Assembly: GCF_030546755.1 (NCBI RefSeq)
Contig: NZ_JAUOPE010000002.1
Location: forward strand, 310,001 to 374,000
Length of the DNA stretch: 64,000 nt
Reading direction: 5' to 3'
Source of the DNA: Colwellia sp. 1_MG-2023
GTDB lineage: Bacteria > Pseudomonadota > Gammaproteobacteria > Enterobacterales > Alteromonadaceae
Position numbers and translations under genes: made by a program
Notes under the pieces: model-generated
What the model saw: the letters and a program-made list of their open reading frames with translations, nothing else
What the model was told of the DNA's origin: nothing
Databases searched by the model: none
Shown: positions 4,733 through 37,647 of the stretch, piece by piece
Numbering within the stretch: position 1 is the first letter of the stretch
Layout: the number at the start of each line of letters is the position of its first letter

Positions 4733-6472
4733 TTAAAACTCAGCGTCTAGTTGAAAGGCCATCTGCTTTTTGTTCACCGGATGTTCAAAGGCTAAATATT
4801 CAGCATGCAAATGCAGTCGGTTAGCCTTTTGACCATATAAATCATCACCTAAAATTGGCATATTTAAACCATCCACATGCGCACAATGCATACGTAGCTG
4901 ATGTGTTCTGCCGGTTTTAGGGTAAAGATATACTTTGGTCAATTTTTTATCTGAGGTAAATTTTGGTTGAGGATGATATTTTTCAAAACGAGTGAGCGCT
5001 TTTTTACCATGAGTAAAGCACACTAACTGGCGTGGTCTATCATTAATATCCACCGTTAGCGGTAAATCAATACTGCCTGCTTCTTTGATTAACTCTCCTT
5101 CAATAATCGCAACATATCGTTTCTCAATAGTTTTGTTGATAAACTGCTGTTGCAGCTTTTTATGCGCCCTTGGATTTAACGCAAGTATCAAAAGTCCTGA
5201 GGTTGCCATGTCTAAACGATGAACAATGAGTGATCCAGTCGCCTGTGGAAATTGTTCTTTAATACGGCTATAAACAGAATCAGTTATCGTCTTGCCAGGC
5301 ACAGAAAGAAATTCAGCCGGTTTATTCACCACGACAATATCTTGGTCATGATAGACAATCGGTAAAATTTTACCTTCAGCAGGATTCGCCAATAACGGAT
5401 TTTCATCTAGCTCTATTCCTGCAAGCATATGTGCAAGGATCGGTTGGCATTTTCCCTGACACGCCGGATAAAAATTCTTATGTTGACGAATTTCAGAGCT
5501 AGGCGCTGCTCCCCACCAAAATTCTGCCATAGTGATAGGCGTTAAATTATGTCGAAAAGCATAGTGTAATAGTTTTGGCGCAGCACAATCGCCAGCACCC
5601 GCAGGAGGTGTTTGAAAAAGTGAATTTTTAAATAAAGTTAATAAATTTTGTGCATCACCGTTTTTATTAAGAAATTGATATTGCTTAAAAAGGTATTTTT
5701 GTAAGGCATTTGATAGCTTTTTTCGCTGCTTTTTTAAATCAGCAAGCAATTCTGTTAACGGATTTAATGTGGTCTCTATCGCCGTAATTTTTTCTTGCCA
5801 GTGTAGTTTTAAATCCGCTAACGCGTGTTTGTCTTCCACACTTTCACGACTCATTTGAATACTAAACGATTTATAGTCTGTTTCAGTTAATTCACCCTGT
5901 TGTAATGCTTGCGTAGCCGAGGCCCGTTTTTGTTTTCGCGTTTTGCGATTAGCCACCATAGTGTCACGAAAATCAGCTAATTCTTGGTCATACTGCTCAG
6001 TTAATTCAGCAAGCTCTGCGGTTAACTTAGCCAGCAAAGCACTATTTTCTTGAGAGGTTATCTGTTGATTAATGTCATTAATAACCAATTGTTTCTCATT
6101 AAAAAAATCATCTTCTTGCTGCATATCGTAAACAGGCGGAACAAAAGTTGTTAAACAGTCTTGCTTGGCGAGTTTGCCAGAAAATGCCGACAAATATCCT
6201 AATTCACCTTGGGGATTTTTCACCACTAACACCCCAAACATTTTACCATTTACTTCGTCGATATTGGTCGATGTAGCCACTTGCTCGTTCATTGACATGG
6301 CAACATGATAATGCCATTGATGATGACTCAATAAATATTGCTGCAACTCTTGCACGGCAACAAGTGCAAGCGGATGAGGTTGATAATAAAACGGGTAGGT
6401 AAAACGCTGAGGTAATGCGTGATCCGCGATCGATTCTTTAAAGGAGGTAAAGCAAGATTCACCAGGGAGCAT
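4733..6472 (-). CDS. RluA-family pseudouridine synthase with long N-terminal extension
   Basis: Converts uridine to pseudouridine in structured RNA. The catalytic domain is C-terminal (about residues 360-579), with the RluA motif HRLDMATSG containing the catalytic Asp and the downstream motif KTGRTHQLRMH. The N-terminal 350 residues are unusual for the family. They include a charged coiled coil (about 130-260, rich in E, K, Q and L) and a segment with GDCAAPK and a cluster of Cys/His (FYPACQGKC) that could bind a metal. This long architecture is known in marine gammaproteobacteria, but its RNA target cannot be read here. It is a single gene, separated from proBA by a strong terminator. Confidence 0.85.
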   Translation of the reverse strand: MLPGESCFTSFKESIADHALPQRFTYPFYYQPHPLALVAVQELQQYLLSHHQWHYHVAMSMNEQVATSTNIDEVNGKMFGVLVVKNPQGELGYLSAFSGKLAKQDCLTTFVPPVYDMQQEDDFFNEKQLVINDINQQITSQENSALLAKLTAELAELTEQYDQELADFRDTMVANRKTRKQKRASATQALQQGELTETDYKSFSIQMSRESVEDKHALADLKLHWQEKITAIETTLNPLTELLADLKKQRKKLSNALQKYLFKQYQFLNKNGDAQNLLTLFKNSLFQTPPAGAGDCAAPKLLHYAFRHNLTPITMAEFWWGAAPSSEIRQHKNFYPACQGKCQPILAHMLAGIELDENPLLANPAEGKILPIVYHDQDIVVVNKPAEFLSVPGKTITDSVYSRIKEQFPQATGSLIVHRLDMATSGLLILALNPRAHKKLQQQFINKTIEKRYVAIIEGELIKEAGSIDLPLTVDINDRPRQLVCFTHGKKALTRFEKYHPQPKFTSDKKLTKVYLYPKTGRTHQLRMHCAHVDGLNMPILGDDLYGQKANRLHLHAEYLAFEHPVNKKQMAFQLDAEF

Positions 6473-6567
6473 AACAAAGCGAGCATTAAAAAGTTAAGGT
6501 AAGCGCATTATAAGCGAATCGTTAAAAAAGTTCGCATCTCTTAGCCATTTTTATTGCTAATAAAAAT

Positions 6568-6600
6568 AAAAACACTCGCTTTAAATAAGCGAGTGTTTTT
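6568..6600 (-). terminator. rho-independent terminator of proBA
   Basis: A perfect 14-bp inverted repeat (arms 6568-6581 and 6587-6600, core ACTCGCTT) with a 5-nt loop. On the minus strand it ends in a T-run, 33 bp after the proA stop. Confidence 0.9.
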
Positions 6601-6632
6601 AGCGATTAACAGCTATTGTCTGTTTGAGCGAA

Positions 6633-7880
6633 TTAAGCCCTCACTTGCCCTTCACCGTTCACTAAATATTTTTCAGTAGTTAATGACTCAATACCCATAG
6701 GCCCGTAGGCATGTAATTTAGAAGTGGCAATACCAATCTCAGCGCCAAGGCCTAATTGTGAGCCATCAGAAAAACGTGAAGATGCATTTACCATCACCAC
6801 CGACGCATCCACTAAACGTTGAAAGTTCATCGCTTTTTGTTGATCTTCAGTGCATATCACTTCGGTGTGATGACTACCAAATTGATCAATATGCTCAATT
6901 GCTTGACCAAAATCATCGACCACACGAATAGCAATTTCTAAGCTTAAGTATTCTTCTCCAAATTCTGAATCAGTTAACGGCACTATGTTGTTAAAATAAG
7001 GAGCTGTACGAGGGCAACCATTCACTTTCACGTCAAGTTCTTCAAAACGTTTCGCCACTAACGGTAAAAATTTATTGGCAACTTTTTGATGAACAAGTAA
7101 CCCTTCTAAAGCATTACAAACACCGGTACGTTGCGTCTTGCCGTTTAAAAGCAAAGCTAACGCTTTATCAATATCGGCTTTTTCATCAACAAATAAATGA
7201 CATACGCCTTTGTAATGTTGGATCACGGGAATTTGGCTATTTTCACTGACAAAATTAATTAAGCCTTCGCCACCGCGTGGGATCACTAAATCAATGTGAT
7301 CTTTTTGCATTAACAGTTCTGTCATCAATGCTCGATCAGGTTGGTCGATAACTGTGACAATTTCTTTAGGCAATTGGTGTTGTACTAAAACTTTTTGTAA
7401 AACGTTCGCAATAGCTAAGCTACTATTTAATGCTTCTTTGCCACCTCTTAATATGACGGCATTGCCTGACTTAATGCATAATCCTGCGGCATCGGCGGTC
7501 ACATTAGGTCGCGCTTCGTATATCATACATATTACGCCTAATGGCACACGCATTTTGCTAATTTTCAAACCATTAGGCCTAACACCTTGCTCTCTCTGCG
7601 TTCCTACTACATCGGGAATTTCTGCAACCGTTTCTAAACCAATGGCCATATCTTCAATACGAGCTTCATTTAATTGTAAACGGTCGAGCATTGCCTCACT
7701 TAACGACTTTTCTTGCGCAAAATTAATATCAAGCGCATTAGCTTGAAGAATGATTGTACTATTATTACGCAATGCCTTTGCCATATCATTTAACAACAGC
7801 GCTTTGTCTTTACTGGTTTGAATAGCCATAACTTTAGCGGCTTGTGCGGCTTTACTTGCAATTGTAGTAATTAAACTCAT
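6633..7880 (-). CDS. proA: gamma-glutamyl phosphate reductase
   Basis: Second step of proline synthesis: NADPH-dependent reduction of gamma-glutamyl phosphate to glutamate semialdehyde in the cytoplasm. The 415-residue length is standard. The aldehyde-dehydrogenase-like fold shows the catalytic Cys in RTGVCNALEG and the family end motif GAEIGIATSKLHAYGPMG. The start ATG shares its A with the proB stop (TAATG), giving translational coupling to the kinase whose labile product it uses. Confidence 0.97.
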   Translation of the reverse strand: MSLITTIASKAAQAAKVMAIQTSKDKALLLNDMAKALRNNSTIILQANALDINFAQEKSLSEAMLDRLQLNEARIEDMAIGLETVAEIPDVVGTQREQGVRPNGLKISKMRVPLGVICMIYEARPNVTADAAGLCIKSGNAVILRGGKEALNSSLAIANVLQKVLVQHQLPKEIVTVIDQPDRALMTELLMQKDHIDLVIPRGGEGLINFVSENSQIPVIQHYKGVCHLFVDEKADIDKALALLLNGKTQRTGVCNALEGLLVHQKVANKFLPLVAKRFEELDVKVNGCPRTAPYFNNIVPLTDSEFGEEYLSLEIAIRVVDDFGQAIEHIDQFGSHHTEVICTEDQQKAMNFQRLVDASVVMVNASSRFSDGSQLGLGAEIGIATSKLHAYGPMGIESLTTEKYLVNGEGQVRA

Positions 7881-8983
7881 TAAGACTCCATTAAGGCGAT
7901 AAATTGTTTAGATAAAATAGGTTCATCAGTTTTATCTAGTTCTTCAGAAAAATTAGTATTATCACTACAGGCGATAAAGTTGAGTAAGCAACTACTGTAA
8001 TTGGTTTTCACTTTCGCTAGTTTTTCACCACTATGTTTCCTCAGTAGTACAGTATCTCCCGACGAAAAATTACCTTTAACACTGACTAAGTCGTCGATAT
8101 CTAATATATCGTTTGGTTGGTTTTCGCTAATCTGATAATCCTCACTGACAATCAACTCACCTTGTACACGAGTGGTATGACGCATCCAATGAACACCATC
8201 AAGCATGGGATCTTTATGAGGATAAAAATGAGTGCCTGGGTTTTCGTCTTTCAATAATGAATTAAAACTTTGCTCTTTAAAGCCATTCACGATGAAAGTA
8301 TCAATACCATGAGCAATGGCTTTTTCTGCTGCTTGAATTTTAGTTTTCATGCCGCCGGTACCAACACTGCTCGTAGCACCGCCTGCCATAGCATAAATGT
8401 CATCATTAATTTGATAAACGTCTGACAATAACTTTGCGTCGTCATTCAAATGAGGATTAGCATCAAAAAGCCCATCAATATCTGAACAAATAATTAACGA
8501 ATCTGCTTTGGCAGCCGTAGCAACCATCGCCGATAAATTATCATTATCGCCAACTTTCAACTTATCTGTTGTTACCGCATCATTTTCATTAATGATAGGT
8601 AAAATATTATTTACTAATAAAGTATCAATGGTATTTCGGATACTTTCATAACGATCTCTATTTCGTAAATCGCCATGTGTTAATAATAATTGTGCTGTTG
8701 GGAAATCAAAAAGCCTGTCCCAGGTAGCCATCATTTCAGCTTGACCTGCGGCTGCCATGGCTTTTTTTATCACGATATTATCTTCACCTGATTCATCAAA
8801 TAAATGCGCGCCAGCCCCTACAGAGCCGGAAGAAACCAAAACCACTTGTATGCCTGATAAACGGCAACGAACGATAAAATTTGCAATACTAAGTAAGTAT
8901 TGACTGCTACAACCATTTTGATTGGGGGCAAATAACGCACTACCGACTTTAATGACTATTCTTTGCCAAGTTTTAAAACTCAC
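7880..8983 (-). CDS. proB: glutamate 5-kinase
   Basis: First committed step of proline synthesis: phosphorylates glutamate. The 367-residue protein has an amino-acid kinase domain (IVIKVGSALF at the N-terminus, VLVSSGSVGAG, the ENDAV motif, VGTGGMKTKI) and a C-terminal PUA domain from about residue 275. It starts with GTG, preceded by AAGGG about 6 nt upstream. In this family the kinase is feedback-inhibited by proline. First gene of proBA. Confidence 0.96.
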   Translation of the reverse strand: MSFKTWQRIVIKVGSALFAPNQNGCSSQYLLSIANFIVRCRLSGIQVVLVSSGSVGAGAHLFDESGEDNIVIKKAMAAAGQAEMMATWDRLFDFPTAQLLLTHGDLRNRDRYESIRNTIDTLLVNNILPIINENDAVTTDKLKVGDNDNLSAMVATAAKADSLIICSDIDGLFDANPHLNDDAKLLSDVYQINDDIYAMAGGATSSVGTGGMKTKIQAAEKAIAHGIDTFIVNGFKEQSFNSLLKDENPGTHFYPHKDPMLDGVHWMRHTTRVQGELIVSEDYQISENQPNDILDIDDLVSVKGNFSSGDTVLLRKHSGEKLAKVKTNYSSCLLNFIACSDNTNFSEELDKTDEPILSKQFIALMES

Positions 8984-9194
8984 GTGAAACCCTTAATAAG
9001 TTATTTAGTACTTTAATACTGACAGCTTATGTCAATATATGAATGAGTATGAGAATACTCAGAAATTAAAAAAGACTGATATTTAAGTCTTGTTTTCCTG
9101 GATTGTTAAATTTGACTATCTATTTAACTTTTATAAAACAAAGATTGTCTCGCTTCATGTAAAACGAGTATGAAACAAGAAAATACAAATAGTA

Positions 9195-9338
9195 CTAATT
9201 AAAAGTAGGAGGAGGATTGAATAAATTAATATATCGATTGAAATGACGTATTGGAGCAAAGTGATGTTGATAGTGAGTTCTAGCATATAATAAATCTACG
9301 GTACTACTGCCTTTTGAAATATCGCGTATGATATTCAT
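9195..9338 (-). CDS. small 47-residue ORF of unknown function
   Basis: An ORF too short for most gene finders. Its ATG is preceded by AAAAGGAAACAAG, a strong ribosome binding site at ideal spacing, and it ends with TAG at 9195-9197. The predicted product begins MNIIRDISKGSSTVDLLYAR, continues with a His/aromatic-rich middle (HYQHH, RHFNRY) and ends in a proline-rich tail (NPPPTFN). It has no TM segment or signal peptide. I do not recognise the family. Support comes from the ribosome binding site, from a promoter-like pair (TTGATT, 17 bp, TAGAGT) and from two SlyA-like palindromes directly upstream. Conservation is untested, so it could still be a spurious frame. Confidence 0.55.
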   Translation of the reverse strand: MNIIRDISKGSSTVDLLYARTHYQHHFAPIRHFNRYINLFNPPPTFN

Positions 9339-9360
9339 CTTGTTTCCTTTTATTTAATTA

Positions 9361-9387
9361 TTAGCGCTCTAATGATTAGTACTCTAA
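9361..9387 (-). promoter_or_regulatory. tandem SlyA/MarR-like operators upstream of the small ORF
   Basis: Two 12-bp elements of the form TTAG-N4-CTAA (TTAGCGCTCTAA at 9361-9372 and TTAGTACTCTAA at 9376-9387 on the plus strand) lie 15 bp apart. SlyA of the MarR family has the known consensus TTAGCAAGCTAA. The elements overlap the likely -10 hexamer (TAGAGT on the minus strand) of the 47-residue ORF, as expected for repression. Confidence 0.5.
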
Positions 9388-10695: not shown

Positions 10696-12054
10696 CTAAC
10701 TATCTGTTTTGATTATTTTATGCCAAGGGCCTCGTATTGCTAGTGTTTTTGTGGGTGAATACACGTTAACAAATAAGGTATTTCCATCAGGAGAAAAACA
10801 GGCGCCTGCTGGCTCAGTTTGAGTGCGTAATCTAGCAAAGTTGTATAATTCGCCATTAGGGGTAACACCTCTTAGGTGATTATCAACAGTGTCTGTATAG
10901 GCATCTTCACATACTAATAAATGCCCTTGTGGTGTTACAGTTAGGTTATCACCAAAATTAAACAGAGAGTCATCTTCACTTTCTAAAAACAATTGAATAC
11001 GACCGCTTTGATTATCTGTTGCATTCGGCTGATAACGAAAAATTTGTCCGAATTTTTTATTTCCGCCGTTAGTACAACAGAAGTACAATTCACCATCAGC
11101 CCAATGTATTCCTTCACCACGAGCAAACAATGCTGCACCTTTGTCAAAACCTTGAATGCGAAGATCATCATTTGGACTTTCTGGATCAGTAATATCAATC
11201 CATTTTGCATCAAGCCAGTTAAATAACTTAGCATTAGTATTCACCCAGTTGCGACTATCAAACTTGGGTTGCTCTTTAATTACCAGCGCTTGTAGCTGAC
11301 CACCTTCAGCAAGTTTTCCATAAGTATTAGGAATAAAGCGATAAAATAACCCATCACCTTTGTCTTCGGTGAGATAAATAATGCCTGTTTTAGGATCAAC
11401 CGCTGCCGCTTCGTGATTAAAACGTCCCATCGCTTTTAAAGGTTTGGCTGTAACCAAGCCTGTTGCATTGGCCGGCACTTCAAAAATATAACCGTGATCT
11501 TTGCTAATTTCGCTGTCTGCTTTTGCAAGCGTTTCTTCACAAGTTAACCAAGTTCCCCAAGGCGTAACGCCTCCTGAACAATTTCGGATTGTGCCAGTAA
11601 GAGTAATAAATTCACGTTCAACCTTTTGAAGTTTGGTATTATAAATAACATTGCTGGTGCCGCCGGGTAATGCAACTCCATTAGCAAAAGTATCATAGGC
11701 TTTTGCTGTTTTATGCTGCTGAATTGATTTAGGTTGTTTAGCTAAATGTTCTGGCTTAAGTTCATGGTTACGAACAAGCACAACACGACTCTCATCAAGT
11801 GGAAAGCACCCCATACCATCAGCCCTATCAGGTACAGCCATACCATCACTCATCAGTTGATTGAATTCTGAGATAATTTTGTAGCTAAATCCTTCTGGCA
11901 AGTCTAATAACCCCTTTGGGTCTTCAATAAGTTTTCCATAACCTTTACTTAGTTTTGTGAAATGCTTGTTTGATTTTGAACCTAAGCTACAGCCGGTTAA
12001 ACCAGTAAAGGCAAGTGCCGTTAACCCTAAGGTAAAATCTCGTCTTGTTACCAT
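10696..12054 (-). CDS. PhoX-family (DUF839) phosphatase-like Tat lipoprotein
   Basis: Likely an extracytoplasmic Ca/Fe-dependent phosphatase of the PhoX superfamily that releases phosphate from organic esters. The N-terminus has both a Tat motif (TRRDFTLGL) and a lipobox (LTGC, Cys22), so it should be exported folded and lipid-anchored; Ser at +2 points to the outer membrane. Family motifs are VRNHE, NCSGGVTPWGTWLTCEE, GRFNHEAAAVDP, TEDKGDGLFYRF and NFGDNLTVTPQGHLLVCED. At 452 residues it is shorter than classical PhoX (about 600) but within the DUF839 group. It is last in line after the TonB-dependent receptor and phytase genes, which suggests a shared role in phosphorus acquisition. A weak hairpin precedes it, so it may have its own promoter. 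Confidence 0.82.
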   Translation of the reverse strand: MVTRRDFTLGLTALAFTGLTGCSLGSKSNKHFTKLSKGYGKLIEDPKGLLDLPEGFSYKIISEFNQLMSDGMAVPDRADGMGCFPLDESRVVLVRNHELKPEHLAKQPKSIQQHKTAKAYDTFANGVALPGGTSNVIYNTKLQKVEREFITLTGTIRNCSGGVTPWGTWLTCEETLAKADSEISKDHGYIFEVPANATGLVTAKPLKAMGRFNHEAAAVDPKTGIIYLTEDKGDGLFYRFIPNTYGKLAEGGQLQALVIKEQPKFDSRNWVNTNAKLFNWLDAKWIDITDPESPNDDLRIQGFDKGAALFARGEGIHWADGELYFCCTNGGNKKFGQIFRYQPNATDNQSGRIQLFLESEDDSLFNFGDNLTVTPQGHLLVCEDAYTDTVDNHLRGVTPNGELYNFARLRTQTEPAGACFSPDGNTLFVNVYSPTKTLAIRGPWHKIIKTDS

Positions 12055-12102
12055 TGTTTATTCTCTCATTTAACTCGATGAGTTTTGAAAATACTTGCAG
12101 AA

Positions 12103-12129
12103 AAAGCAGCTAACTATATTAACTGCTTT
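12103..12129 (-). terminator. weak hairpin between phytase and PhoX-like genes
   Basis: A 7-bp stem (AAAGCAG/CTGCTTT) with a 13-nt loop, followed on the minus strand by TTC. It could be a partial terminator that lowers readthrough from phytase into the PhoX-like gene. Confidence 0.35.
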
Positions 12130-12163
12130 CACATTATTAGCTACAGTTGCTTAATAGCATTAT

Positions 12164-14056
12164 TTATATCGATGGCACTCTTTTAGCAATCCATTCCCTT
12201 AGTAGACTACCACTGACCAATTTAAAATTTTGTGCTGCTTGAGGCATAACATTGTGCCCATCTTGCACTACCAATAATCCGTTCGGTAATTCTGCCCCTA
12301 AAAATTGACTAGTAACGGCTAAACCGTCGGTTTCAGATGCACCGTCAATCATCTCTGGCCAGTTAGCACCAACTTCAAAAACTCCTAGATATTTATATTG
12401 ATTATCAATGGCATAAACAGAATATCGGTTATTGCCTTGGCTTGAGACCACCAAATAATGCTTATCCAAATATTGATATAAGCTCATACCTTCAATATCT
12501 GCAGCAATTTCATTGTGTAAGCCGGCAATGAATTTATCTGGTGTATTGTTATCAATGTGTTTTAGCCATACCCCTTTAGCTTCTTCACCGTAGAATAGTC
12601 GTTGGGTTTCATCATCACTAACACACCCTTCAGGTTGACTAGCAACTGTCCATTCAAGCGTTTTTTCTGCGGTAACTGTGTCACCATTGAACTGAAAATC
12701 GTAACGTTGAAAACGGCCATCAGTATCATTTATCCATGCTGTAATTTGACGTTGATGCTTACTTAAACAAAAACCATAAGGGTCTGTTAAATCTGTTTTT
12801 ATATTCGTAAGGTGTGTCGGTAAGCCGGTTATTTTATCAATAGCAAATACACTGATACTTTTAGAAGTACGATTGCTCGCTGCGGCAATATCAAAACTTT
12901 TGCCATTGACCATAACATCATATCGAATATCGATGTTGTTAATACGACCTACAGGTAAGCTTGTCACTAATTTGCCTGATAAGTCATACACATTTAGACC
13001 ATATTTTTTATCTGTTGTGTATACCAAACTCGCTTCAGGTGTTTGTTTGTTTACCCATATTTCAGGATCATCTGCTGCATCGCCAAAACTTAACACTGAC
13101 TCAGTTTGGCCATAAGGCAATAAACTTTCTACTGGCTCTGCTTGAGGAAAATCGGTATTACCTACTTGCTCAATTTGAACACTCAAAATTCTTTTGCTGT
13201 TGTCATCATAAAGGTTCGTGACAAGCGTATCGCCCATACGAGTAACTTGAACTGTTTTAGGTGCGACATTTTTTGGTAGTTTTTCTTGCGTTAATTGCTT
13301 GTTTGCTTGATCCCATAACCACACAACATTTTTATCTGGAGAAACAATGGCAACATCACCTTGTTCAGTGGTATCTACATATTCAACTTCTAATCCTTTT
13401 TCCAATTGAATAAGCTCGCGAGTACGCTCATGCTCTGGGTTGCTAGAGTATCGCCAGATACCAATATTTTCTTCGACGATATAAAGTGATTCAGCGTTTT
13501 CGCTAACCGCACAAGATTTCACATTTGGTCCAACGGGAAAACGTGTTATTTCAGTTAATTGCCAAACCTGATTTATTGCTTGATACACGTTGTAGTGGAC
13601 AACCTGACCTAAAACATCAACCGTGAATATGTCAATGCCATGTGACGCAGCACTTAAACATAAAGCATCAATCGCACTATTTTTGGGCTTAAATCGCTGC
13701 TTAATATCAAGCTGTTGCTGCTTATGATCAATTTCAATAAATAACAATTCTCCGGTATTCGTGTCTAAAGTAGTGACCACACCTTTATTTAGCGCATTGG
13801 GCAATTGACGGTAATCTAAATGTTCAGCGGGTTGTTGTATCTGTGCAACAACCGCCAAATCTTCATTCAATAGCTTAATACCTTGGGATTCGCTCACAGC
13901 AATTTGCTGACGATTACCCTCAACAGCATTAGGCACTAATTGTAAAAATTCGATATCTATTGGTGTCGCGACTTGTTTAACATTGGCATTACTAAAAAAT
14001 GGCGATATAAGGACTAGAAAATTCACTAGCCAAATTGCCTTAAAATTCATATTCAT
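12164..14056 (-). CDS. dual-domain beta-propeller 3-phytase
   Basis: Hydrolyses phytate (inositol hexakisphosphate) in a calcium-dependent way outside the cytoplasm. The C-terminal half (from about residue 325) carries the beta-propeller phytase signatures: DDPEIWVNK, TTDKKYGLNVYDLSG, PVGRINNIDIRYD, AADIEGMSLYQY and ASETDGLAV. The N-terminal half (about 40-320) looks like a second, diverged propeller with the same blade rhythm but without these Ca/phosphate residues, as in known dual-domain phytases of aquatic bacteria. A signal peptide (FKAIWLVNFLVLISPFFSNA) is clear. I chose ATG 14056 (MNMNF), about 9 nt after AAGAGA; the frame also opens at ATG 14077 without a ribosome binding site. It follows the TonB-dependent receptor. 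Confidence 0.9.
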   Translation of the reverse strand: MNMNFKAIWLVNFLVLISPFFSNANVKQVATPIDIEFLQLVPNAVEGNRQQIAVSESQGIKLLNEDLAVVAQIQQPAEHLDYRQLPNALNKGVVTTLDTNTGELLFIEIDHKQQQLDIKQRFKPKNSAIDALCLSAASHGIDIFTVDVLGQVVHYNVYQAINQVWQLTEITRFPVGPNVKSCAVSENAESLYIVEENIGIWRYSSNPEHERTRELIQLEKGLEVEYVDTTEQGDVAIVSPDKNVVWLWDQANKQLTQEKLPKNVAPKTVQVTRMGDTLVTNLYDDNSKRILSVQIEQVGNTDFPQAEPVESLLPYGQTESVLSFGDAADDPEIWVNKQTPEASLVYTTDKKYGLNVYDLSGKLVTSLPVGRINNIDIRYDVMVNGKSFDIAAASNRTSKSISVFAIDKITGLPTHLTNIKTDLTDPYGFCLSKHQRQITAWINDTDGRFQRYDFQFNGDTVTAEKTLEWTVASQPEGCVSDDETQRLFYGEEAKGVWLKHIDNNTPDKFIAGLHNEIAADIEGMSLYQYLDKHYLVVSSQGNNRYSVYAIDNQYKYLGVFEVGANWPEMIDGASETDGLAVTSQFLGAELPNGLLVVQDGHNVMPQAAQNFKLVSGSLLREWIAKRVPSI

Positions 14057-14082
14057 TACGTTATTTCTCTTACTCATTCAAC

Positions 14083-14111
14083 AGCAAGGCAAACATAACA
14101 TTTGCCTTGCT
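14083..14111 (-). promoter_or_regulatory. intercistronic hairpin between receptor and phytase genes
   Basis: A perfect 11-bp inverted repeat (AGCAAGGCAAA/TTTGCCTTGCT) with a 7-nt loop fills the 67-bp gap. No T-run follows on either strand, so a processing or 3'-stabilising hairpin that uncouples receptor from phytase levels is likelier than a terminator. Confidence 0.6.
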
Positions 14112-14123
14112 AGCCATTACTTA

Positions 14124-16922
14124 TTACAACGAGTTAATGGTAAAACCTAACTCAAACGACGCGCCATATTCTTCATATTGATAGTTGTATGCCCTATCGC
14201 CATGGTAAATATATAAAGGTTCGTCGGTTATATTGACGGCGTTAAAATACACTTGCATGGTGTCGCTAAAGTAATATTTAGCTGTGAAGTCGACTTGAGT
14301 ATGGGTGTCTTCATAAACAGATGAATCATTGTCGACAAACTGGAAGCTTTCACTTTTGTATGAAGTACTTAAGCGGGCGCTGAATTTATTGTTTTCATAC
14401 CCCAACATTAAGTTTGCTAATGTGTCAGCTTGATTTGGTAAATCATCATCAGTATCAACAAAGGTACCGTTTGCACTAATAAATAATCCAAAGTCAAAGT
14501 TTTTTGTCCACGCTAACTCAAGGCCAGTTAATGACGCACCTCCACCATTGATTGGTTGAAAGACCTCTTCATAACCGTCCCACTGACCATTATTTTGCAC
14601 TTCAGCAAGCACAACATAATTACTGATATCTTTATAAAATAGGCCCGCAGACATAACGCCAATATTACCTGGGTAATATTCAATTGAAAAATCAATATTG
14701 TTTGACTCAAAAGCTTCTAAGTTTGGGTTACCTACTTCAGCTTTTCGTTCAGTTTCAATTACACCATCATCTTCAGTCACTTCACTTTCAATTAATTGAT
14801 ATGCAGCTGAATCGCCAAAGGTTGGTCGCGCAATAGTTTGTGTAAAAGCAAAACGAGCAAGCAGCTTTTCTGACGCTTGATATTTAACATTTAAGCTTGG
14901 TAGCAAGTGAGCATAATCTTTGCTGACATGCCATGGCGAAATATTAACGCTTTCATCATCATTAACACCATCTTCGATTAGCTCAACACGATTTCCGGTA
15001 GTTTCAAAACTGGTATCTTCATAACGAAGACCTGTGATAACTCGCCACTTGTCAATATCAAGCGTAATCATTGCGTAAGCAGCAGTAACATCTTCTTCAC
15101 TAAAATAAGAGCCCGCGTTTGAATCGATCATGGTATCAAGTTCGTTGATTTCAAACTGACTCCTATTACTATTAACATAACTCGACAGCCCGCTTTGGCT
15201 AAGACTAGGACCAAAATTTCCTAGTTCATAGCGAGGAGAAGCGGTTTCAAAATTCGCCGCGGTTACCTCGTCAAAGCCACCGTCGTAAATAGTTACATCG
15301 ACGTTATTCGATTTTTCACGTGACTGATGCTTGAAACCAAACTTGAAAACACCGTTGTTGTTATTCCAAACAAAATCACGACTTAGATCGAGCTTGACGC
15401 TAATTTCTTCATCTTCAGCACGGTTATTTTCATAAGCTATCTCATCAATTTCAAAATTAGTGAGATCATGGGCTGCAGCACTTTGAGTTAAACGTGGCAC
15501 ATTGCCTGTTGATTGATAACCAAGAAGCAAATCTTCGCCAGCAAAAGCCACATCAATACGGTTTGGCTCATCTTCCTTTGACTTTGAAAAACCAGCATCG
15601 TATTCAACTAACCATTGATTAAGTTGGTTTGAACCACCTAATACAATTGATAAAATTTCTTGTTTTTCGTAACGATCTTTCGTACCTCGTTCCATTTCAG
15701 CGTCAATAAATTGTGCGCTACTTTGAGTATAAGAGTTAGAATCTAAGGCACCATCAGATAATTTATATTGGTTACTGGTTCTAAACTCATCATCTGAAAA
15801 ATGACTATACAAGGTTCGTAAGTAATATTTATCGGTTAAAGAGGTGTGCAAATCAAAGTTTAAGGCAACTCCTAGACGTTCACGAGTAATAGCATAATGG
15901 CGTTGCTCAATTTCTTCAGCGCCAAAAGTTTCAACATCTTCTCCTGTTACTGCATCTTCGTATTCAAATTCAGCCCAGCCGCCACCTGTTTCAATATTGT
16001 GAGAGCCAAACTCGCGTTCAAACCATGAAATAGCACTAGCTACACCAAGTTGTGAGCCACCAGAGAGTTGAAAAACATCAGTGAAACTACCTGATAATTT
16101 AGGGCTGCTTTCTTCCATCAATTCATTGTAAGAGCCTTGAATTGTTGCGCTATAGCTTTGCTCTTGCTTATCAAAAGCACTTAAGCTTTTAACTTCAACA
16201 GAGCCACCCACTGCATTAGCATCCATATCAGGTGTAACCGTTTTACTCACTTCTAAACTTTGAATCAGCTCAGACGGAATAACATCCATGGCAACACTTC
16301 GAACCCCTGATTCTGGCGAAGGCACATTAACCCCATTGATGGTGACGTTATTTAAATTGGGGTCGATACCACGAATAGCAACAAAACGCCCTTCACCTTG
16401 ATCACGTTGAATTGACATACCCGGTAGGCGTTGCAACGCTTCTGCTGCATTTTGATCAGGCGACTGTCCTATTATGTCTGCACTAACCACTGACATTAAA
16501 TTGTCGGCATTACGCTGACGGTTAATTGAACCTGCTTGGCCTGCACGTTGACCATATACGATAACATTTTCGATACTACGAATGTCAGAACCTATAACAA
16601 AGCTTTGCTGAATCTCGCCATCAGTACCAACAGTAATACTTTTAGTTACTTTTTCAGCGCCTAAATAGTTTATTTCTAACGTATATGTCCCTTGAGGCAC
16701 ATTACTGAAACGGAAAGAACCGTCTCGAGCAGTGATCGTTGTAATGTCTAATTCTATCAAGCGCACTTTCGCACCTTCAAAATATACCGAATTTGACGCG
16801 TCAGTTACACGGCCAGAAAAATTAGATTCAGCCGCTAGCACTGTAGTGTTGAATAGAGCAGCACCACAAGTTATCGCTAGTGCAGAGTATTTAAACTGCT
16901 TCCACGGAGTTAATTTGGTCAT
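14124..16922 (-). CDS. TonB-dependent receptor, probably for phytate-derived substrate
   Basis: Outer-membrane active transporter. The 932-residue protein has a signal peptide ending around VLAAES. It then has a carboxypeptidase-regulatory-like beta-sandwich (about 33-110), a plug domain (VVSADIIGQSPDQNAAEALQ, followed by the LPGMSIQRDQGEGRFVAIRG region) and a C-terminal beta-barrel. This is the Caulobacter/Xanthomonas-type TonB receptor subclass. Its position as first gene of the run receptor, phytase, PhoX-like protein suggests it binds or imports phytate or a product of it; the specificity is inferred from context only. TonB/ExbBD are not in the window. It is divergent from the GGDEF-AraC pair across a 337-bp gap. 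Confidence 0.88.
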   Translation of the reverse strand: MTKLTPWKQFKYSALAITCGAALFNTTVLAAESNFSGRVTDASNSVYFEGAKVRLIELDITTITARDGSFRFSNVPQGTYTLEINYLGAEKVTKSITVGTDGEIQQSFVIGSDIRSIENVIVYGQRAGQAGSINRQRNADNLMSVVSADIIGQSPDQNAAEALQRLPGMSIQRDQGEGRFVAIRGIDPNLNNVTINGVNVPSPESGVRSVAMDVIPSELIQSLEVSKTVTPDMDANAVGGSVEVKSLSAFDKQEQSYSATIQGSYNELMEESSPKLSGSFTDVFQLSGGSQLGVASAISWFEREFGSHNIETGGGWAEFEYEDAVTGEDVETFGAEEIEQRHYAITRERLGVALNFDLHTSLTDKYYLRTLYSHFSDDEFRTSNQYKLSDGALDSNSYTQSSAQFIDAEMERGTKDRYEKQEILSIVLGGSNQLNQWLVEYDAGFSKSKEDEPNRIDVAFAGEDLLLGYQSTGNVPRLTQSAAAHDLTNFEIDEIAYENNRAEDEEISVKLDLSRDFVWNNNNGVFKFGFKHQSREKSNNVDVTIYDGGFDEVTAANFETASPRYELGNFGPSLSQSGLSSYVNSNRSQFEINELDTMIDSNAGSYFSEEDVTAAYAMITLDIDKWRVITGLRYEDTSFETTGNRVELIEDGVNDDESVNISPWHVSKDYAHLLPSLNVKYQASEKLLARFAFTQTIARPTFGDSAAYQLIESEVTEDDGVIETERKAEVGNPNLEAFESNNIDFSIEYYPGNIGVMSAGLFYKDISNYVVLAEVQNNGQWDGYEEVFQPINGGGASLTGLELAWTKNFDFGLFISANGTFVDTDDDLPNQADTLANLMLGYENNKFSARLSTSYKSESFQFVDNDSSVYEDTHTQVDFTAKYYFSDTMQVYFNAVNITDEPLYIYHGDRAYNYQYEEYGASFELGFTINSL

Positions 16923-17259
16923 TCTCGTATCTCATCATTTTGTAGTTGACGACAATTTTTATTGTCGCGGGTTTAAGAAACGTGAAGACGCTAACCAATA
17001 AAAATGACAGTAATATTTCACTCACTTCACCAACGGGCGAATTTGAATCAAATATCACTCAAATATCATTATTTTTAAGATGAATGAGCTAATTCAACCT
17101 TGCATTTTCTCACGGTTATTCAAGGAGTATTGCTGAATATATTTAACTTTATCGCTTTGCTGTAAAAAAGTTGTAACTCTTGTGAGCTAATATGACCCTT
17201 CCGCTGAGCCCTACATATTTTTATGCTAATCAGCACTAATTACTTGAATAGTTATTTTT
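16923..17259. promoter_or_regulatory. divergent promoter region of receptor and GGDEF-AraC operons
   Basis: Contains an 18-bp perfect inverted repeat (CGACAAT-N4-ATTGTCG, 16950-16967) 28-45 bp upstream of the receptor ATG, which could be an operator or a 5'UTR hairpin. A single PhoB-like half-site (CTGTCAT on the minus strand, 17004-17010) has no convincing partner at 11-bp spacing. The TATTT-rich remainder shows no ORF. The AraC-family regulator encoded on the right is a candidate to bind here. Confidence 0.45.
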
Positions 17260-35382: not shown

Positions 35383-35534
35383 GTAAATTAACTTTAAGTT
35401 TTCAATGGCATTATTTTAAGTGTTTAAAATAGAAGTACCATACATTTAACCAACAATGAACGCCGTTCCATTGAGTTAAGTTGTTATTAGTCAGTAAAGT
35501 ATCAGACTACGGTAGTCATCGAAACGTAATTATA

Positions 35535-35578
35535 CTGTCATCTATGCGCAAAATTTTTGTCATAAACATGCCATAAAG
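35535..35578 (+). promoter_or_regulatory. tandem Pho box (PhoB binding sites)
   Basis: CTGTCAT at 35535 and TTGTCAT at 35557 are exactly 22 bp apart. The second is followed at 11 bp by ATGCCAT (35568-35574), giving TTGTCATAAACATGCCATAA, close to the PhoB consensus CTGTCATAAA-CTGTCAT. The box ends about 38 bp before the ATG of the downstream lipoprotein gene, a normal position for PhoB activation. Confidence 0.7.
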
Positions 35579-35615
35579 TAGCTCAAAATAACTCTACTCA
35601 CTTAATGGTAATATA

Positions 35616-37427
35616 ATGATAACACTTAAAAATATATCTTTAGCAGGTTTATTACTTGCTTCTCTCACCGCATGTAATGGTGATGACGGTAAAGACGGTT
35701 CAGCAGGCGTAACTGGCGAACAAGGAGTGCAAGGAGAACAGGGAGAGCAAGGTGTTGCTGGTGAAGACGGTAAAAGCGCCACTAAATCTTTAACAACGTC
35801 ACTTATTGCACGTGCCGTATTAAATGCAGAGTCTCCTGAAGGAGCTGCTGAAATAGTACAATATCAACAATCAACAGGTTGGATTTATGCCATTAATAGT
35901 TCTGGCGAAAAAGCAACGGTTGATATTTTAGACTTAAATAATATTGATCCTGCTGCCTTAACTAAAGACAGTGAAGGTATAGTCACCAATACCAACATGT
36001 CTACTGTCATGCAAATTGATTTATCACTGAATACCGCCGGAGATGCAAACAGTGTAAGTGTTTCAAATACTTTAAATATTTTAGCCGTTGCAATGGCGGC
36101 AAATAATACTGGTGAACGAGGTTTTATTGCCTTTTATGATATTTCTGGTCCATCACCAAGCTTTATCAAAAATGTACAAGTAGGTTATTTACCAGATATG
36201 GTAGCAATTTCAAAAGATGGCACTAAAGTTGTGGTTGCCAATGAAGGTGAGCCGAATGGCGATTATTCAATTGATCCTGAAGGTAGTATTTCGATTATCG
36301 ATATTAATGCTGGTGTTATTTCAGACACTGCGATCAATCTTGACTTCACTGCATTAAACGACAAAAAAACTGAATTAATGGCACAAGGGGTAATGTTTGC
36401 TAACCCTTCAGGTCGAACAATCAATGGCAACTTAATCAATACTACCGTCGCGATGGATCTTGAACCGGAATACGTCGCTATTTCATCAGATAATCAAACA
36501 GCGTTTGTTTCTATTCAAGAAAACAATGCGATGGCAGTGGTAAATTTAGCCACCAATACTTTGGTAGAAGTAAAAGGCTTAGGTTTTAAAGATTGGTCAA
36601 ACTATCAGATTGATGCCTCTGATAAAGATGATGGCATCAATTTCCAAACTTACCAAAACTTATATGGCATGTATCAACCAGACACCATTGCAACCTTTAC
36701 ATGGCAAAATGCTAATTTTATTATCAGTGCCAATGAAGGAGATGGCAGAGAATATTTCTTTGACGCCAGTTCTGAAACTGATTGTATGTCGAAAGGTGGC
36801 TTAGATTATGATGAAGATGATGGCTGTCTAGCGTATATCGATGAGAGCCGCGTGGAAGATTTACCTTTAGACCCTGCTGCTTTTGCTCAAGTGAATAATG
36901 ACGACAATGATATTGGTAGACTTAAAGTATCAAAAGTAAAAGGTGATATTGACGGCGATGGTGATTATGACCAGCTGTACACATACGGAGCCCGCTCTTT
37001 TTCTATTTGGGATCAAAATGGCAATATCATTTTTGATTCTGGCGATGACGTTGGCAAAATAACGGCAGCTATTCATGGTCAAGCCTTTAATAATGATGAA
37101 GATACTAACGAAGGCGATACACGTTCAGATGCCAAAGGTGCTGAGCCTGAAGCGCTAACCGTAGGAAAAATTGGAGAAAACACCTACGCATTTATCGGTT
37201 TAGAAAGAATGTCAGGCATCATGATTTATGACATCACCAACCCATTTAACGTAAGTTTTGTTGATTACTTTATCAACCGAGGCACCACTGAAGATGCCGA
37301 TATTACTGGCGATTTAGCCCCAGAAGGCATGGCTTTTATTCCCGCTACGGCAACGTCAAGTGCGATGCTAATTGTTGGTAATGAAATTTCTGGCTCCGTC
37401 AGTGTATGGGAAATAAGCCAACCATAA
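35616..37427 (+). CDS. choice-of-anchor I type beta-propeller lipoprotein with collagen-like linker
   Basis: A 603-residue lipoprotein. The signal peptide ends in the lipobox LTAC (Cys20). Residues 22-50 form a run of Gly-X-Y triplets (GDDGKDGSAGVTGEQG, continuing GVQGEQGEQGVAGEDG), a collagen-like stalk. The rest is a beta-propeller-like domain of the choice-of-anchor I family: LPDMVAISKDGTKVVVANEG with EPNGDY, EPEYVAISSDNQTAFVSIQE, and the end LAPEGMAFIPA. Acidic Ca-site-like loops such as DIDGDGDYDQ occur at about 447-456. Homologues are often labelled alkaline-phosphatase-like, but activity is unproven. The Pho box upstream supports a role in phosphate starvation. Own terminator downstream. 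Confidence 0.82.
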   Translation: MITLKNISLAGLLLASLTACNGDDGKDGSAGVTGEQGVQGEQGEQGVAGEDGKSATKSLTTSLIARAVLNAESPEGAAEIVQYQQSTGWIYAINSSGEKATVDILDLNNIDPAALTKDSEGIVTNTNMSTVMQIDLSLNTAGDANSVSVSNTLNILAVAMAANNTGERGFIAFYDISGPSPSFIKNVQVGYLPDMVAISKDGTKVVVANEGEPNGDYSIDPEGSISIIDINAGVISDTAINLDFTALNDKKTELMAQGVMFANPSGRTINGNLINTTVAMDLEPEYVAISSDNQTAFVSIQENNAMAVVNLATNTLVEVKGLGFKDWSNYQIDASDKDDGINFQTYQNLYGMYQPDTIATFTWQNANFIISANEGDGREYFFDASSETDCMSKGGLDYDEDDGCLAYIDESRVEDLPLDPAAFAQVNNDDNDIGRLKVSKVKGDIDGDGDYDQLYTYGARSFSIWDQNGNIIFDSGDDVGKITAAIHGQAFNNDEDTNEGDTRSDAKGAEPEALTVGKIGENTYAFIGLERMSGIMIYDITNPFNVSFVDYFINRGTTEDADITGDLAPEGMAFIPATATSSAMLIVGNEISGSVSVWEISQP

Positions 37428-37453: not shown

Positions 37454-37479
37454 AAGGCTTCATGTATTGAAGCCTTTTT
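37454..37479 (+). terminator. terminator of the lipoprotein gene
   Basis: A 9-bp stem AAGGCTTCA/TGAAGCCTT with a 5-nt loop, followed by TTT, 26 bp after the stop. Confidence 0.8.
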
Positions 37480-37647
37480 GCTTTTCAATCTTGCTAACCA
37501 CCAAAATTTTTGTTCGATAGTACAAAAATAACCACTTGATTATAAACAGTTTAAAAACTTGCTTCTTTTGATAAATCTGCTTACTTGGCAGGCCTTAAAA
37601 AAATTGCTTCAATGTTATCCCTTAAACGAAACGGCAGGAGATATCAC

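Follow-up and report, generated by a model that had tools for sequence, protein, structure and literature searches.

The gene at positions 35616–37427 of the window (the whole 64,000-nucleotide stretch of Colwellia DNA analysed here) encodes a stalked lipoprotein of the choice-of-anchor I family and is preceded by a predicted PhoB-binding array. Judged from the sequence, regulation of this gene by PhoB is close to certain, because phased boxes are conserved ahead of its orthologues and the PhoX genes used as controls behave as expected of a Pho box. The best reading of the product is a phosphate-starvation-induced, probably calcium-dependent phosphoesterase. The family and its connection to the atypical alkaline phosphatase PhoA(aty) are already known in pieces; the new part appears to be the conserved PhoB control ahead of stand-alone gammaproteobacterial choice-of-anchor I genes.

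Architecture of the lipoprotein

The gene, the domains of its product and the downstream hairpin are listed below.

35616–37427, + strand: choice-of-anchor I family lipoprotein, 603 aa (PF22494, 3.6e-87; NF038117, 477 bits, cut-off 300)
35616–35675, + strand: predicted signal peptide and lipobox LTAC, with acylated Cys20 and Asn at +2 (translation; lipoprotein rules)
35679–35777, + strand: collagen-like Gly-X-Y stalk, residues 22–54, 11 perfect triplets (triplet count; PF01391, 24.1 bits)
35838–37415, + strand: predicted beta-propeller, choice-of-anchor I domain, residues 75–600 (profile match; invariant acidic motifs)
Invariant motifs, first half: LPD 192–194; NEGEP 209–213; DxEPEY 281–286; QPD 354–356; NEGD 373–376
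Invariant motifs, second half: R460; KGxEPE 507–512; LER 529–531; PEG 569–571; NE 589–590
37454–37480, + strand: likely intrinsic terminator AAGGCTTCA...TGAAGCCTTTTT (inspection by eye)

Both choice-of-anchor I models, NF038117 and PF22494, were matched over their full length and well above the curated cut-offs. Only sequence defines this family, to which no function has been assigned. Its members differ in how they are anchored: the protein described here has a lipid anchor and a Gly-X-Y stalk, whereas cyanobacterial relatives have, for example, PEP-CTERM. Because a likely terminator hairpin follows the gene after 37454, the gene is probably monocistronic. Choice-of-anchor I genes were also seen on small mobilizable plasmids of Acinetobacter baumannii (CP061707.1, 19.7 kb) and Azotobacter chroococcum (NZ_CP066312.1, 76 kb), which suggests horizontal spread.

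The lipid anchor and the Gly-X-Y stalk had been proposed from the sequence-only reading of this DNA, and both were borne out by the sequence, the anchor as a prediction from the LTAC lipobox at Cys20 and the stalk by the 11 perfect triplets; the bit score of the collagen match lies just below the PF01391 cut-off of 27.2. In most orthologues the stalk is 8–20 triplets long. Of the 64 orthologues whose N-terminus is complete, 8 have no stalk, and it is therefore regarded as a useful spacer that is dispensable. Sorting to the outer membrane is predicted from the Asn at +2 by the E. coli rule, and several orthologues have Asp at this position.

The acidic, metal-like loops described in the same reading also held up. 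Across 20 diverse homologues, gammaproteobacterial and cyanobacterial, the invariant residues comprise 13 Glu and 11 Asp (24 acidic residues in total) as well as 8 Asn, 5 Arg and 2 Lys, and two of the invariant motifs are Pro-Asp. A single-sequence AlphaFold model was useless (pLDDT 33). No close solved structure was found, the nearest being a YVTN propeller of the Methanosarcina surface layer. Single-protein and alignment queries of viral contigs found no homologues.

A Pho-box array ahead of the gene

Heptamer pairs were scored with an E. coli-style Pho matrix, and genome-wide matches were sought by pattern only. The array consists of the following elements.

35513–35574, + strand: predicted PhoB-binding array, six units in 11-bp phase (sequence, matrix score and orthologue phasing)
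Units of the array, + strand: TAGTCAT 35513; ACGTAAT 35524; CTGTCAT 35535; GCGCAAA 35546 (degenerate); TTGTCAT 35557; ATGCCAT 35568
35557–35574, + strand: core Pho box TTGTCAT-AAAC-ATGCCAT (score 15.1 against a background maximum of 12.1)

The three heptamers that were reported first are present as described: CTGTCAT at 35535–35541, TTGTCAT exactly 22 bp further on at 35557–35563, and ATGCCAT another 11 bp on at 35568–35574. The array extends beyond them, with TAGTCAT at 35513 and ACGTAAT at 35524 sharing the 11-bp phase. The distance to the start codon, which had been given as 38 bp, was corrected to 41 bp from the end of ATGCCAT to the ATG at 35616. With the matrix, the pair at 35557 had the top Pho score of the 64-kb window; the background maximum was taken from 1418 tiles of 180 bp. 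The exact pattern CTGTCAT-N15-TTGTCAT occurs a single time in the 4.03-Mb genome by pattern search.

Conservation of the boxes in orthologues

Matches to the lipoprotein were found in 66 of the 118 genomes of its GTDB family and in 33 of the 369 genomes sampled across the class. The family set for the analysis of the boxes comprised 63 orthologue upstream regions. In this set the mean best pair score was 10.9 at a period of 11 bp and 11.2 at a period of 22 bp, and every remaining period between 8 and 24 bp gave 4.4–6.6. Compared with dinucleotide shuffles, z was about 24 at periods 11 and 22 and 3–9 at the others. The same phase was obtained independently of the matrix: TCAY pairs numbered 46, 40, 31 and 18 at spacings of 11, 22, 33 and 44 bp and 0–7 at any other spacing between 5 and 60 bp. 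The TCAY motif was also biased in strand, with 220 occurrences on the coding strand versus 64 on the opposite strand.

The best pair was above the 95% background tile in 46 of the 63 upstream regions and above the 99% tile in 38, while 17 regions held no pair above the 95% tile. On the reverse strand, used as a control, the corresponding counts were 8 and 4, and among tiles of flanking DNA from these genomes 5% lay above the 95% level and 1.3% above the 99% level. Among other families of the class, 10 of 20 orthologue upstream regions exceeded the 95% level and the spacings of 11, 22 and 33 bp recurred. Canonical PhoX genes of the same bacterial family (positive control) mostly carry boxes of identical type; the short PhoX-like genes of relatives (negative control) do not have them.

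That the TGTCAT-like repeats arose by chance and have no regulatory meaning is an idea to which we give practically no credence. Heptamer pairs are frequent genome-wide, with 450 matches when up to two mismatches are allowed and 301 when the pattern is reversed as a control, but the orthologues are only 40–70% identical as proteins and their intergenic DNA has otherwise diverged around the phased boxes, so that the conservation test refutes this explanation. Conservation of the repeats upstream of orthologues had been named beforehand as a check on the sequence-only reading; the 11-bp phasing and the strand specificity gave it a strongly positive outcome and lend strong support to the predicted PhoB control and phosphate-starvation induction.

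The Pho system elsewhere in the genome

A Pho island is located at C1:395000–412000. It encodes PhoB, PhoR, a PstS-family protein, a porin, a lipoprotein, a TonB-dependent receptor and a DUF3450/ExbB operon, and its boxes score 12–20. The PhoB of the island matched TIGR02154 above the cut-off. Several OmpR-family regulators bind direct repeats of 10–11 bp, and the boxes ahead of the choice-of-anchor I gene are consensus matches, so a winged-helix protein of the OmpR/PhoB family other than PhoB might recognise these repeats. We consider this very unlikely, since the TGTCAT unit and the 11-bp phase also precede phoB, pstS and the porin gene of the island and, in relatives, the majority of canonical phoX genes, and since the genome has a PhoB equivalog.

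The lipoprotein of the Pho island (533 aa) had no family match; its gene lies some 200 bp downstream of the island's highest-scoring box (20.5). Next to it are the TonB-dependent receptor and then the DUF3450-ExbB operon with a box of its own (ORFs in the span 5018–9381). Together these genes may form a Pho-controlled TonB uptake system.

Three classical PhoA-family genes are present in the genome, and their best upstream pairs score only 0.6–8.5. No PhoD was found in the genome. Because the PhoA-family genes have no strong Pho boxes and PhoD was not found, the choice-of-anchor I lipoprotein is a leading candidate for the inducible phosphatase of this genome.

The window also contains a phytate cassette.

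10696–16922: TonB receptor, phytase (PF02333) and short PhoX-like protein, operon-like
17004–17021, − strand: half-site Pho box GTGAAATATTACTGTCAT, ahead of the phytate cassette

The sequence-only reading had placed the lipoprotein and this cassette under one organic-phosphate theme. The theme as such is compatible with what was found; the link between the two loci is weak, as the cassette has one good heptamer only, CTGTCAT at 81 bp before the TonB receptor gene, with GTGAAAT as its partner. The short PhoX-like protein of the cassette is of the type that is without Pho boxes in relatives. Shared PhoB control of the cassette was rejected as unproven on the basis of its half-site box.

Relation to PhoA(aty) and other families

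The S. elongatus control genome contains a PF22494 match. Within the domain, the lipoprotein shows 41% identity to residues 681–1175 of a 1376-aa cyanobacterial protein, of which the N-terminal half is a 5′-nucleotidase (5_nucleotid_C) and the C-terminal half is choice_anch_I. The genome of this cyanobacterial protein encodes a KaiC that is 97% identical to Synechococcus elongatus KaiC. By its size and distribution, the 1376-aa protein is very probably PhoA(aty), reportedly described by Ray et al. in 1991. Cyanobacterial fusions of 5′-nucleotidase and choice_anch_I are about 1360–1380 aa in length and are likely atypical PhoA.

PhoA(aty) is reported to have conserved D/E residues and a Pro-Asp calcium motif and to have relatives in marine bacteria; Ca, Mg or Mn supports activity of the purified recombinant enzyme of a dinoflagellate, and PhoA(aty) is strongly up-regulated without phosphate (PMC4548154, PMC6723241). 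Cyanobacteria, dinoflagellates and haptophytes all have a PhoA(aty). The lipoprotein resembles the cyanobacterial proteins in the shared domain (41–44% identity to their C-terminal half), and it may resemble PhoA(aty) in the conserved Asp/Glu and Pro-Asp motifs and in phosphate-starvation control, which is here predicted from the boxes. In contrast to PhoA(aty), it has no 5′-nucleotidase domain by profile search, and it has a lipid anchor, a collagen-like stalk and gammaproteobacterial PhoB boxes.

A 760-aa protein with a degenerate choice_anch_I domain and a Phytase-like domain was found in a genome of 1,657,990 bp, probably that of Prochlorococcus MED4. It aligns to the choice_anch_I half of the 1376-aa protein, which is consistent with the report that MED4 ‘phoA’ is a distant, Pi-responsive homologue of PhoA-aty (PMC11098088). 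MED4 ‘phoA’ and the lipoprotein are alike in the choice-of-anchor I domain, degenerate in the former; they are only 27–33% identical over pieces, and MED4 ‘phoA’ has an extra phytase-like domain and no lipobox or stalk. Two relatives from the same family as our genome have a 1082-aa fusion of a Phytase-like domain and choice_anch_I, and the Prochlorococcus-type proteins have the reverse domain order.

PhoX, a calcium/iron alkaline phosphatase, is similar to the lipoprotein in its predicted propeller, its acidic metal-like loops and the presence of Pho boxes within the same bacterial family, but belongs to a Pfam family separate from choice_anch_I. PF05787 (PhoX) had no match in the lipoprotein, and hhalign comparisons with the full and short PhoX sets showed no significant similarity (probability 2–6%). 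A local hhalign match between the EPEY...ENN stretch of the lipoprotein and the RPE...NN stretch of PhoX is suggestive at most.

MSP130 may belong to the choice-of-anchor I family, which is a lead only. MSP130 is an animal protein with another anchor and is located in the skeleton, in which it differs from the lipoprotein. Bacterial and green-algal homologues of this sea-urchin biomineralisation protein have been reported, according to PMC4536745, which cites Ettensohn 2014. Literature searches combining choice-of-anchor I or MSP130 with phosphate starvation found nothing useful.

Proposed function and mechanism

As a whole, the observations are best explained by a PhoB-regulon, outer-membrane, stalked, calcium-binding propeller phosphoesterase, an explanation that we regard as reasonably probable. 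A calcium-dependent phosphoesterase is the best guess because the domain is shared with PhoA(aty), for which the motifs, the activity and the induction are published. By analogy, the propeller most likely binds calcium and hydrolyses phosphate esters. We only infer the catalysis, because bacterial PhoA(aty) also has a 5′-nucleotidase domain; in cyanobacterial PhoA-aty the fused 5′-nucleotidase alone could be the source of the phosphatase activity, which is a serious caveat. The earlier proposal of a phosphatase held by the stalk is thus kept as plausible, given the occurrence of the domain in the probable PhoA(aty) and the 5′-nucleotidase or phytase-like domains carried by relatives, and the domain itself is a candidate for the catalyst.

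At low phosphate, PhoR would phosphorylate PhoB, which would bind the phased heptamer array and activate transcription. After export, the lipoprotein would receive its lipid at Cys20 and would probably go to the outer membrane, and the collagen-like linker of 33 residues would hold the propeller off the membrane. The linker would be about 9 nm long if it forms a triple helix, and a triple helix would make the protein a trimer. The propeller would bind calcium via its invariant Asp/Glu loops and hydrolyse phosphate esters like PhoA-aty and PhoX, and the phosphate freed from organic esters would be taken up by the Pst system.

Among the rival explanations most weight is given to a PhoB-regulated protein that is not an enzyme, although we think it unlikely. 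Such a protein would act at the surface as a scaffold that binds calcium or phosphate, as in the non-enzymatic view of animal MSP130, and might capture phosphorylated or mineral-bound ligands or be a matrix protein. A scaffold would agree with the repeated fusion of the domain to distinct catalytic domains (5′-nucleotidase, phytase-like), as expected of an accessory domain, with a surface-layer propeller as the closest solved structure and with the unsettled function of MSP130 (PMC4536745). However, dozens of invariant Asp, Glu, Arg, Lys and Asn residues across phyla resemble an active site, and the stand-alone versions of the domain predominate in this bacterial family with the Pho box kept. 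We therefore prefer the phosphoesterase.

Significance

Marine bacteria, cyanobacteria and some archaea commonly encode choice-of-anchor I proteins, which are annotated by their anchoring only. The conserved PhoB control gives this large family without an assigned function a role in phosphorus stress that is open to testing in Gammaproteobacteria that can be grown in culture. It is possible, if doubtful, that choice-of-anchor I proteins in general are widespread phosphate-starvation-induced calcium phosphatases, in which case MSP130, for which a bacterial origin has been reported, would descend from a phosphate-scavenging enzyme. The finding may explain some of the marine alkaline phosphatase activity that PhoA, PhoD and PhoX leave over. 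It also provides a simple model, in bacteria, of the ancestor that has been reported for MSP130.
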